A stretch of DNA of 64,000 nucleotides, taken from Jiangellales bacterium. GTDB taxonomy: Bacteria > Actinomycetota > Actinomycetes > Jiangellales > Jiangellaceae. This document shows positions 7,092 to 62,688 of the stretch, in pieces. The stretch covers positions 699,485 to 763,484 of the forward strand of contig JAUJNY010000001.1 of assembly GCA_030447955.1 (NCBI GenBank). The letters run 5' to 3'. Below the pieces are notes generated by a model. It did not search any database and had not been told where the DNA came from. It saw only the letters and a list, made by a program, of their open reading frames with translations. The position numbers and the translations under genes are program-made. How positions within the stretch are numbered: the first letter of the stretch is position 1; each line of letters starts with the position of its first letter.

Positions 7092-10091
<3,000 letters not shown>

Positions 10092-55578: not shown

Positions 55579-57399
<1,821 letters not shown>

Positions 57400-57406
57400 G
57401 CTCCCG

Positions 57407-58624
<1,218 letters not shown>

Positions 58625-58625
58625 G

Positions 58626-59516
58626 TCACTCCTCCGTCAGCAGGCCCAAGGTGCGGAGGTCCTCGACCGGCTCGCTGACGCTGCAGCTGCCGAAGGAGCG
58701 AACCAGCCGCCGGGTCCGGACCGCTTCCTCGGTGGACAGGGCTCGGGCCCCGGCGGCCAGGCCGGGCGCGTCGCGGACGGCCAGCACCGCGCCGACGTCA
58801 GCTCCGCTGCCACCGTCGGTCGCGGCGGCCGCCGCCAGCAGCAGGTTGAGGTAGCCGTGCCGCTCCAGTCCGGTGGCCGGCTCGGTGTGCCGCACCGCCT
58901 GGTGCAGGCCAGCCGTGCACTTCAGCGGCACATCCAGCTGGTGGCAGGCGAGCAGGAACTCGGCGACGTCCTGCTCGGGAGGAAAGGCGGCGGCGCTCGG
59001 CCCTCCGGTGCGCAGCTTGGCCTGGTGGCCGGATGCCGCGACGGCCGCGAGAGCCGCTCGTCCAGCTGCGGTGGGAGGAAGCTCCACGGAGACGACGACC
59101 GCGTCGCTGCTCTCGCCGGGCTGTTGGGTACCTGCGGCCAGGGCCGCCTCGAGGTCGGCGAGCGTCTGGGCTGCCGTGTCGGCGAGCGGCTCACCGCGCA
59201 CGGCCAGCTCGACTCCGCGCAGCGCCGTCCGGCTGTCGGCGGCGACAGCGGCCATTGCGTCCGGGAGCCCGCCGGTGCCGGTGTCGGCGACGACGCTCAC
59301 CTCCAGTGGCTCTCGCCCGGAGCCGGTGTCCAGCACGTCGGTCAGCTCGTCCAGGCGCGAGGCCGGGCACAGGAACGGCCCCACCAGGTCGGCGTACCAC
59401 GCGGTGCGGTGCCCAGCGTGCGCGGACACCGCGACGGTCATCGGTGCCTCCGCCGGCGGAAAGAGAGCAGCATCGTCGACGAGTGACGTGAAGAGGTGGT
59501 GTAGGGCCGTTGACAC
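58626..59516 (-). CDS. Uncharacterised protein of the homogentisate cluster
   Basis: 296-residue soluble protein with alternating helix-strand character of a TIM-barrel. Conserved-looking motifs are DDAALFPPAEAPM, KLRTGG (182-187), FPPEQDVAEFLLACHQ and VPLKCTAGLHQAVRH (216-230), then HGYLNLLLA. No family with known function is recognised. GTG at 59516. It is tightly linked to fahA (1-bp gap) and divergent from hmgA, so it belongs to tyrosine breakdown. The maleylacetoacetate isomerase step is the one activity not otherwise seen here. Confidence 0.75.
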   Translation of the reverse strand: MSTALHHLFTSLVDDAALFPPAEAPMTVAVSAHAGHRTAWYADLVGPFLCPASRLDELTDVLDTGSGREPLEVSVVADTGTGGLPDAMAAVAADSRTALRGVELAVRGEPLADTAAQTLADLEAALAAGTQQPGESSDAVVVSVELPPTAAGRAALAAVAASGHQAKLRTGGPSAAAFPPEQDVAEFLLACHQLDVPLKCTAGLHQAVRHTEPATGLERHGYLNLLLAAAAATDGGSGADVGAVLAVRDAPGLAAGARALSTEEAVRTRRLVRSFGSCSVSEPVEDLRTLGLLTEE

Positions 59517-59585: not shown

Positions 59586-60794
59586 ATGGCCTACTACCGC
59601 GCGGTCGGGGACGTCCCACCCAAGCGGCACACTCAGCACCGTCGGTCCGACGGTGGTCTGTACGCCGAGGAGCTCATGGGGGAGGAGGGCTTCTCCTCCG
59701 ACTCCGCTCTGCTTTACCACCGCGGCAACCCCTCCGCGATCGTGGACTCCCGGCCGTGGGACTTGCCCGACCTGACGACCGTGCCCAACCACCCGCTCAA
59801 GCCCCGGCACCTGCGCCTGCACGACCTGTTCCCCGGGGAGGAGTGGAAGGCGGCGGACGTCGTCACCGGGCGCCGGCTCGTGCTCGGCAATGCCGACGTC
59901 CGCATCAGCTACGTCGTCGCCGGCGAGGCCTCACCGCACTACCGCAACGCGGTGGGCGACGAGTGCGTGTACGTCGAGTCGGGCGCAGCCGTCGTAGAGA
60001 CCGTCTTCGGTCCGCTGGCCGCCCGCCAGGGCGACTATGTCGTGCTGCCGCGGGCCACCGTGCACCGTTGGCTCCCGTCCGGTGAGGAGCCGCTGCGCGC
60101 GTACGTCATCGAGGCCAACTCGCACATCACCCCGCCCAAGCGCTACCTCTCGAGGTACGGGCAGTTCCTCGAGCACGCGCCCTACTGCGAGCGTGACCTC
60201 ACCGCGCCGAGCGAGCCTGCCCTCGTCGACGGGCGCGACGTTGAGGTCTGGACCAAGCACCGCGGGCGCGGGCCGGCCGGGCTCGCGGGCAGCGTCGTGG
60301 TCTACCCGACCCACCCCTTCGACGTGGTCGGTTGGGACGGCTGCCTCTACCCGTACACGTTCAACGTCGCTGACTTCGAGCCGATCACCGGCCGCGTGCA
60401 CCAGCCGCCTCCGGTGCACCAGGTCTTTGAGGCGGGCAACTTCGTGATCTGCAACTTCGTGCCGCGCAAGGTCGACTACCACCCGCTGGCGGTACCGGTG
60501 CCGTACTACCACTCGAACGTCGACAGCGACGAGGTCATGTTCTACTGCGGCGGCGACTACGAGGCTCGCCAGGGTTCGGGGATAACGCCGGGGTCGATCT
60601 CGCTGCACCCGGGCGGGCACTCCCACGGCCCGCAGCCCGGGGCGGTCGAGCGCAGCCTGGGCAAGGACTACTTCGACGAGCTCGCCGTGATGGTCGACAC
60701 CTTCCGCCCGCTCGACTTGGGGGAAGGTGGCGTGGCCTGCGACGACGGGGCCTATGCGTGGACGTGGAGCGGGCGCGGTCCGGAGCCGCGGTAG
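59586..60794 (+). CDS. hmgA: Homogentisate 1,2-dioxygenase
   Basis: 402-residue bacterial-type HGD that opens the homogentisate ring. Key segments are LVLGNADVRISYVVAGEASPHYRNAVGDECVYVESG, PPPVHQVFEAGNFVICNF, and YYHSNVDSDEVMFYCGGDYEARQGSGITPGSISLHPGGHSHGPQPG with His and Glu iron ligands. ATG at 59586. Its last 11 codons and stop lie in a segment that is repeated once just downstream. Confidence 0.94.
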   Translation: MAYYRAVGDVPPKRHTQHRRSDGGLYAEELMGEEGFSSDSALLYHRGNPSAIVDSRPWDLPDLTTVPNHPLKPRHLRLHDLFPGEEWKAADVVTGRRLVLGNADVRISYVVAGEASPHYRNAVGDECVYVESGAAVVETVFGPLAARQGDYVVLPRATVHRWLPSGEEPLRAYVIEANSHITPPKRYLSRYGQFLEHAPYCERDLTAPSEPALVDGRDVEVWTKHRGRGPAGLAGSVVVYPTHPFDVVGWDGCLYPYTFNVADFEPITGRVHQPPPVHQVFEAGNFVICNFVPRKVDYHPLAVPVPYYHSNVDSDEVMFYCGGDYEARQGSGITPGSISLHPGGHSHGPQPGAVERSLGKDYFDELAVMVDTFRPLDLGEGGVACDDGAYAWTWSGRGPEPR

Positions 60795-61188: not shown

Positions 61189-62688
61189 ATGCCACGATCT
61201 CCAGGCCTGCCGCGCCGCGCCACCGCGCTGCTCGCAGCCGGCGCACTCCTCACCGGTGGCGGTCTCGCCGCCGCCGGACCCCTCGGCGCTAACGCGTCGA
61301 GCCACCGGGAGGCACCGAACACCCTCGCAATCCCGCAGTACGACAACACCGATGTGTACGCCTTCGTCAGCCCGGACAAGCCGGGCAAGGTCACGCTGAT
61401 CGGCAACTGGTACCCCTTCGAGGAGCCGGCCGGCGGTCCCAACTTCTACCCGTTCGCCAACGATGCCCGCTACATCTTCAAGATTGACAATGACGGGGAC
61501 GCGAACGCGGATATCAATTACCGCTTTATGTTCCAAGACCACTTCCGCACCAAGAACACCTTCCTCTACAACACCGGTGTGGTAACCAGTCTTGACGACC
61601 CGGACCTGAACTTCCGCCAGACCTACACTCTCAGCCGCAAGATCCGGGGCGAGGGGTGGCAGCTGCTCAACCGTGGAAAGGTCGCCCCGTCGTACGTCGG
61701 CGAGGCGTCGATGCCCAACTACGCCGCCCTGAGCAACGCGGCTATCGACACCTACGGCCCCGAGGGCCACCGGTCCAAGTCCTTCGCCGGCCAGGCTGAC
61801 GACTCCTTCTTCCTCGACCTGCGGCTCTTTGACCTGCTCTACGGCGGTGACCTCTCCGAGGTCGGCGACGACACCCTCGCCGGGTTCAACGTCAACACCA
61901 TCGCCATGCAGGTGCCCAAGCGGTTTCTGACGGCTGGCGCACCAAAGCATGACCCCGTCATCGGGGTGTGGTCGACCACGACCAAGGAGGCCGCGAACGG
62001 TCGCTACCGGCAGGTATCGCGGCTGGGCAACCCGCTCGTCAACGAGGTGGTCATCCCGCTCAAGGACAAGGTTCGTTTCAACCAGTCCTACCCGCGCAAC
62101 GACGCCATGTTCCTCAAGTACGTGACCGATCCGGAGGTTCCGGAGCTCATCGAGGCGATCTACGGCATCGAGGCACCGCCGACGCCGCGGAACGACCTCG
62201 TCGCTGTGTTCCTCACCGGGATCAAGGGGCTAAACCAGCCCCAGAACGTACGCCCCAGCGAGCAGCTGCGGCTCAACGTGAACATCCCACCGTCCGACAA
62301 CCCCCACCGGCTCGGGGTGCTCGGCGGCGACAACGCCGGGTACCCGAACGGCCGGCGGCTGACTGACGACGTCCTCGACATCGCGCTGCAGGTGCTCGAG
62401 GGGGAGCTGGTCGGATCCCCGAACGATCTCGGGGACGCGGTCAACGTCAACGACAAGCAGTTCCGCGGCACGTTCCCCTACGTCGCGCTGCCGCACTCCG
62501 GCTCGTCGGAGCAGCCGCACCACGCGAGCGGGTACACCGCTCTCACCGGTGGCGCCGCACCAGACGCGTCGACCTCGACGGGATCCTCCTCGGCACTCAC
62601 CGTGCCGGTGACCCTCGTCGGGTTCGGTCTGCTGCTGCTCGCCGCAGGCGGCGTGCTGGCTCGTCGGCCCCGGCTGACGACAGCCTGA
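61189..62688 (+). CDS. DUF4331 secreted, C-terminally anchored protein
   Basis: 499-residue DUF4331 protein. Signal peptide (to about residue 35), conserved start ASSHREAPNTLAIPQYDNTDVYAFVSPDKPGKVTLIGNW, repeated beta-rich body, and a C-terminal membrane segment (ALTVPVTLVGFGLLLLAAGGVLARR) with basic stop. The family is unassigned biochemically. ATG at 61189. The TPR gene follows after a strong hairpin. Confidence 0.9.
   Translation: MPRSPGLPRRATALLAAGALLTGGGLAAAGPLGANASSHREAPNTLAIPQYDNTDVYAFVSPDKPGKVTLIGNWYPFEEPAGGPNFYPFANDARYIFKIDNDGDANADINYRFMFQDHFRTKNTFLYNTGVVTSLDDPDLNFRQTYTLSRKIRGEGWQLLNRGKVAPSYVGEASMPNYAALSNAAIDTYGPEGHRSKSFAGQADDSFFLDLRLFDLLYGGDLSEVGDDTLAGFNVNTIAMQVPKRFLTAGAPKHDPVIGVWSTTTKEAANGRYRQVSRLGNPLVNEVVIPLKDKVRFNQSYPRNDAMFLKYVTDPEVPELIEAIYGIEAPPTPRNDLVAVFLTGIKGLNQPQNVRPSEQLRLNVNIPPSDNPHRLGVLGGDNAGYPNGRRLTDDVLDIALQVLEGELVGSPNDLGDAVNVNDKQFRGTFPYVALPHSGSSEQPHHASGYTALTGGAAPDASTSTGSSSALTVPVTLVGFGLLLLAAGGVLARRPRLTTA

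Follow-up and report, generated by a model that had tools for sequence, protein, structure and literature searches.

How maleylacetoacetate is isomerised in glutathione-free bacteria appears to be unanswered in the literature that we searched. MaiA, the zeta-class glutathione transferase (TIGR01262) that catalyses this step, requires glutathione (PMC10950700). The only Streptomyces pathway scheme that we found draws "MAAI" without naming a gene (PMC11012174), and no description of a glutathione-independent maleylacetoacetate isomerase was found in the open-licence literature searched. This question is raised by the window, a stretch of 64,000 nucleotides from a Jiangellales bacterium (contig JAUJNY010000001.1, positions 699,485 to 763,484), in which the gene at 58626-59516 on the minus strand, labelled X here, lies inside a homogentisate cluster. 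The genes in and around this cluster are as follows.

55612 to 56091, minus strand, start approximate: Lrp/AsnC-type regulator (PF01037, PF13412), divergent from hppD.
56200 to 57399, plus strand, start approximate: hppD, 4-hydroxyphenylpyruvate dioxygenase (TIGR01263, 419 bits, cut-off 277).
57407 to 58624, minus strand: fahA, fumarylacetoacetase (TIGR01266, 455 bits, cut-off 375; PF01557 and PF09298).
58626 to 59516, minus strand: X, an ORF with a GTG start encoding an uncharacterised protein of 296 aa, proposed here as a glutathione-independent maleylacetoacetate isomerase.
59586 to 60794, plus strand: hmgA, homogentisate 1,2-dioxygenase (HgmA_N and HgmA_C above the Pfam cut-off; TIGR01015, 59 bits, cut-off 511).
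61189 to 62688, downstream of hmgA: DUF4331 protein (PF14224, 511 bits).

A first-pass annotation of this DNA had described X as lying 1 bp from fahA and divergent from hmgA, in a cluster with hppD, hmgA, and fahA; the ORF and its coordinates confirmed the arrangement, and Pfam and NCBIfam matches confirmed the three genes. The GTG start codon of fahA (58624) occurs 1 bp past the TGA stop codon of X, with fahA downstream of X, and a Shine-Dalgarno-like GGAGGAG run overlaps the X stop codon. This spacing and the position of the run indicate that X and fahA are probably translationally coupled. On the other side, hmgA starts at 59586 on the strand opposite to X, leaving a 69-bp intergenic stretch between the two genes, while hppD and the Lrp/AsnC-type regulator lie beyond fahA as seen from X. 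FAH and HPPD of the window are clear equivalogs, both scoring above the cut-offs of TIGR01266 and TIGR01263. At 402 aa, the window HmgA represents a short and divergent subfamily, scoring far under the TIGR01015 cut-off; this subfamily accompanies X in most clusters and also occurs without X in genomes G300 and G046 and in Nocardia farcinica.

X is a real gene and not a chance ORF, since it is carried by 43 of 99 related genomes at 38-51% identity (the window's own row excluded). Relatives also turned up on another 22 named contigs from actinobacteria and on 24 plasmids, among them plasmids of Priestia and Kovacikia minuta, and the family thus spans at least three phyla, namely Actinomycetota, Bacillota (Priestia), and Cyanobacteria, the last represented by one cyanobacterium (Kovacikia). 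The 68 family sequences formed 30 groups at 50% identity, so that the X-fahA pattern is not one clone repeatedly counted. No sequence homology of X to any enzyme was found in the databases searched: X had no match in Pfam or NCBIfam, even at E ≤ 10, no PHROG match, and no sequence relative in the PDB, and a 52-sequence X profile searched against Pfam, NCBIfam, PHROG, and PDB sequences returned nothing specific. Likewise, no relative of X was detected in the viral contigs searched.

Gene order was strikingly constant with respect to fahA, as in 63 of the 63 loci holding both genes X directly preceded fahA and was read in the same direction. Among these loci hmgA varied in both position and strand, sharing the strand of X in 19 and lying on the other strand in 41. 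Priestia has the order hppD-X-fahA-aminotransferase-hmgA, Kovacikia carries hmgA and hppD on one strand and X-fahA on the other, and Rhodococcus plasmids carry cupin/HmgA-X-fahA with CoA transferases nearby, which is in keeping with acetoacetate use. X was apart from fahA in genomes G332 and G333, both of which have HmgA and FAH elsewhere. In the sampled proteobacterial clusters, maiA adjoins or is near fahA/hmgA in several though not all cases, often at the position corresponding to that of X, and no gene annotated like X was present in these same clusters.

The co-occurrence of X with the pathway was examined in a sample of 247 Actinomycetota genomes, with FAH and maiA scored at profile cut-off. 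FAH was above cut-off in 27 of the 247 genomes and X was present in 14, not counting the borderline genome G101, whose weak X match (E = 6e-4) was dropped because it vanished on re-search with a better query. Thirteen of the 14 X-positive genomes carried FAH (Fisher p = 1.8e-13, with the shared ancestry of genomes ignored), and in the 14th X lies at a contig edge with hmgA 1.8 kb away. A true maiA above cut-off was found in none of the 247 genomes; none was detected in any X-bearing genome or record of a second set either, where two proteobacterial plasmids, the positive controls, matched maiA at about 254-258 bits. No maiA was found in the window's own genome, which is 82% complete. The absence of maiA noted by the first-pass annotation therefore holds in the window genome, at this completeness, and throughout the phylum sample, and the association of X with hmgA/fahA in maiA-less genomes that it had proposed to look for was indeed observed. 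A wide occurrence of X outside tyrosine clusters was also looked for, and X was instead confined to pathway-bearing genomes.

Conservation within the family was then examined; counting starts with the GTG-encoded first residue as 1, which puts residue numbers one above those of alignment A1 and the structure model. Without exception, the 66 full-length relatives share Asp14, Ala16, Phe19, Pro20, Pro21, Glu145, Lys167, Arg169, Pro179, Thr201, Gly203, Leu204, His205, Gly221, Gly276, Cys278, and Pro283. The K-x-R-x-G-G and T-A-G-L-H motifs pointed out in the first reading are thus real and belong to the family core, given that Lys167, Arg169, Thr201, Gly203, Leu204, and His205 are among these residues. 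The segments concerned map to the window as follows.

59454 to 59477, minus strand: DDAALFPP signature, where beta-strand 1 of the barrel ends (alignment and model).
59010 to 59018, minus strand: codons of Lys167-Leu168-Arg169 (KLRTGG motif, beta-strand 6), the proposed catalytic/substrate-binding pair Lys167 and Arg169, from their invariance in 66/66 and the model.
58890 to 58922, minus strand: Lys199 to Arg209 (KCTAGLHQAVR), strand 7 and the following loop, with invariant Thr201, Gly203, Leu204, and His205.
58683 to 58685, minus strand: codon of Cys278 (GSCS motif), just after beta-strand 8, invariant in 66/66 and proposed as the internal nucleophile replacing glutathione.

AlphaFold2, run on the 52-sequence alignment, predicted eight strands in TIM-barrel order (pLDDT 95.4, pTM 0.92). 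In this model Glu145 closes strand 5, strand 6 bears both Lys167 and Arg169, strand 7 bears Thr201, and Cys278 comes directly past strand 8, and the invariant Lys167, Arg169, His205, and Cys278 are found at or near the strand ends of the predicted barrel, where the active sites of TIM-barrel enzymes sit. Two divergent X copies (G150, locus L077; G317, locus L097) lack Lys167, His205, and Cys278 but retain much else, and both are still beside fahA in the cluster. The joint loss of the three residues in these two decayed copies suggests that Lys167, His205, and Cys278 act together. These copies are possibly pseudoenzymes or decaying genes; within genus g177, X is intact in G241, decayed in G317, and absent in G309.

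Based on genomic context and the predicted structure, we consider it reasonably probable that X catalyses the cis-trans isomerisation of maleylacetoacetate with no need of glutathione or mycothiol, at the step that links homogentisate dioxygenase to fumarylacetoacetase. The inferred pathway step would be that of MaiA, whose gene likewise is near fahA/hmgA in sampled Proteobacteria. The two proteins, however, show no sequence relation, X having no maiA or GST profile match at E ≤ 10, and MaiA has a GST fold, with a thioredoxin-like N-domain and a helical C-domain, whereas the X model is an eight-stranded TIM barrel. It should be stressed that genomic context alone cannot tell isomerisation apart from some other reaction at that stage of the pathway.

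In one such alternative, X would not perform the main isomerisation but would protect FAH by dealing with by-products or off-route intermediates of homogentisate breakdown, for example a lactone, a quinone-acetate adduct, or products of the succinylacetoacetate type. The distribution of X among FAH-positive genomes bears on this explanation. Of the 27 genomes with FAH, 14 carry neither X, whose absence was confirmed on re-checking, nor a true maiA, indicating that the maleylacetoacetate step is manageable without X. Eight of these 14 belong to one streptomycete-like genus, in which HmgA was remote or unmatched with the window HmgA as query. In G300 hmgA abuts fahA with no X, Nocardia farcinica retains the HmgA subfamily of the X clusters without X, and G253 carries FAH and HmgA with no X, maiA, or TIGR03083 protein. 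Gene calling around hmgA/fahA of X-negative genomes revealed nothing recognisable as a replacement isomerase. These genomes may use an unknown isomerase, spontaneous thiol-catalysed isomerisation, or an FAH able to take the cis isomer as substrate. X is thus a common solution to the step without being universal or obligatory. That several FAH-positive genomes do without X is what would be expected of an accessory enzyme, and the two X copies decayed in place fit a protective role as well; both observations count against the isomerase role proposed above, the decayed copies having stayed in the cluster despite losing presumed catalytic residues. Nevertheless, the strict coupling of X to fahA across three phyla, and the lack of any other gene in the X clusters that fills the isomerase step, make the side-product explanation unlikely.

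X could instead be an aldolase or hydrolase that uses Lys167 as a Schiff base and cleaves the ring-opened product directly, bypassing isomerisation. Foldseek provided some ground for this, since the best PDB neighbours of the X model were TIM barrels, mostly Schiff-base aldolases of the DERA (2-deoxyribose-5-phosphate aldolase) type, and class I DERA-type aldolases carry their Schiff-base lysine on strand 6, the strand on which Lys167 lies in the X model. These matches were weak, however, with a best E value of 1.2e-3, TM scores of 0.47-0.54 by query, and rmsd of 6-7 Å, and no PDB entry matched the model at E ≤ 0.001. At the sequence level, DERA homology was rejected by profile comparison with two DERA sequence sets (hhalign probability < 1%), and X had no match to Pfam DeoC. 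X, as modelled, and DERA are alike in the TIM barrel and the conserved strand-6 lysine, but differ in motifs and in genomic context. Moreover, an intact FAH directly downstream of X, as found in every locus holding both genes, would be redundant if X itself cleaved the ring-opened product. We regard direct cleavage by X as improbable.

An actinobacterial replacement of a glutathione-dependent isomerase is known from the chemically parallel gentisate pathway, as a mycothiol-dependent isomerase is clustered with a ring-cleavage dioxygenase and an FAH-family hydrolase in Rhodococcus nagIKL (PMC3937715). By analogy with this maleylpyruvate isomerase, X might be a mycothiol-dependent isomerase, and the first-pass annotation had indeed considered mycothiol in connection with X. 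However, X is of another family and fold than NagL/Ncgl2918 (MDMPI/DinB, TIGR03083): profile searches found no relation to the DinB and MDMPI families and no TIGR03083 match, and the X model is a barrel. The MDMPI fold, by comparison, is the DinB helical bundle. TIGR03083 paralogues occurred in 23 of the 25 genomes searched, regardless of whether X was present, and MDMPI paralogues were thus rejected as an explanation of the X pattern.

The distribution of the mycothiol biosynthesis marker MshC was also considered. Scores above the MshC cut-off (485) were confined to genomes belonging to the same class as the window genome. In the window genome (82% complete), G140, and G207 the matches were weak, at about 272-294 bits versus the cut-off of 485, and we infer that such matches represent cysteinyl-tRNA synthetase. 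G207 has intact X, HmgA, and FAH, its MshC match being the one at about 272 bits, and no TIGR03083 match. The X family further occurs in Priestia and in a cyanobacterium; Bacillota use bacillithiol and cyanobacteria use glutathione. X is thus found in organisms with no detected mycothiol genes, in contrast to the mycothiol-using NagL/Ncgl2918, and it has an invariant cysteine of its own. While the assignment of X to the homogentisate pathway is supported by comparative genomics, through its tie to fahA in maiA-less genomes, a role of mycothiol finds no support in these data, and a mycothiol-dependent X is very unlikely. Because the family works across thiol regimes and keeps an invariant cysteine, the simplest reading would be that X supplies its own thiol.

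It is similarly very doubtful that X is a non-catalytic FAH partner, such as an assembly factor or allosteric regulator, for although the invariable adjacency and likely translational coupling to fahA would suit such a role, the complete barrel with invariant Lys, Arg, His, Cys, Asp, and Glu at or near the strand ends looks catalytic, and X is separated from fahA in G332 and G333.

If X is a maleylacetoacetate isomerase, it probably uses its own cysteine as the nucleophile and so appears to carry in its chain what MaiA takes from glutathione. The following residue-level mechanism, patterned on the chemistry of MaiA, in which a thiolate adds to the cis enone and leaves once the enolate has rotated, is tentative. 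Cys278 would attack maleylacetoacetate at its cis double bond, like glutathione in MaiA, while Lys167 on strand 6 would activate the C4 ketone as an iminium or electrostatically. Arg169 and Arg209 may bind the carboxylates, His205 may serve as the acid/base, and these residues together with Lys167 would stabilise an enolate or enamine. Rotation about C2-C3 would then be followed by departure of the cysteine, and the resulting fumarylacetoacetate would pass to FAH. Maleate cis-trans isomerase of the Asp/Glu racemase superfamily, a cofactor-free enzyme with a protein cysteine as nucleophile, offers a precedent for this mechanism, but it is of another family, absent from the Pfam matches of X and from the 50 Foldseek matches listed.

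The evidence leaves evenly balanced the broader proposition that X founds a new TIM-barrel enzyme family of maleylacetoacetate isomerases with a built-in cysteine and lysine, which need no low-molecular-weight thiol and take the place of MaiA both in glutathione-poor Actinomycetota and Bacillota and in at least one cyanobacterium. Should it be true, X would carry out a known enzyme activity with an unrelated protein, probably without a cofactor, and would be a second, non-homologous solution to the maleylacetoacetate step; annotators could complete the homogentisate pathway in many actinobacteria, and a cofactor-free cis-trans isomerase might find biocatalytic use. As the family bears no Pfam or NCBIfam name and would act one step upstream of fumarylacetoacetase, the question is testable with one purified protein.

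A few loci may point to uses of X beyond homogentisate. Two Streptomyces plasmid loci (L073 and L213) carry the X-fahA pair with no hmgA nearby, possibly for use with another ring-cleavage product; in L213, an aromatic-ring-hydroxylating dioxygenase gene is found downstream of the pair. In locus L122 of genome G330, X (7776-8654) is away from hmgA/fahA and directly follows what looks by eye like an FAD-dependent monooxygenase; X may there take part in a peripheral route for aromatics.
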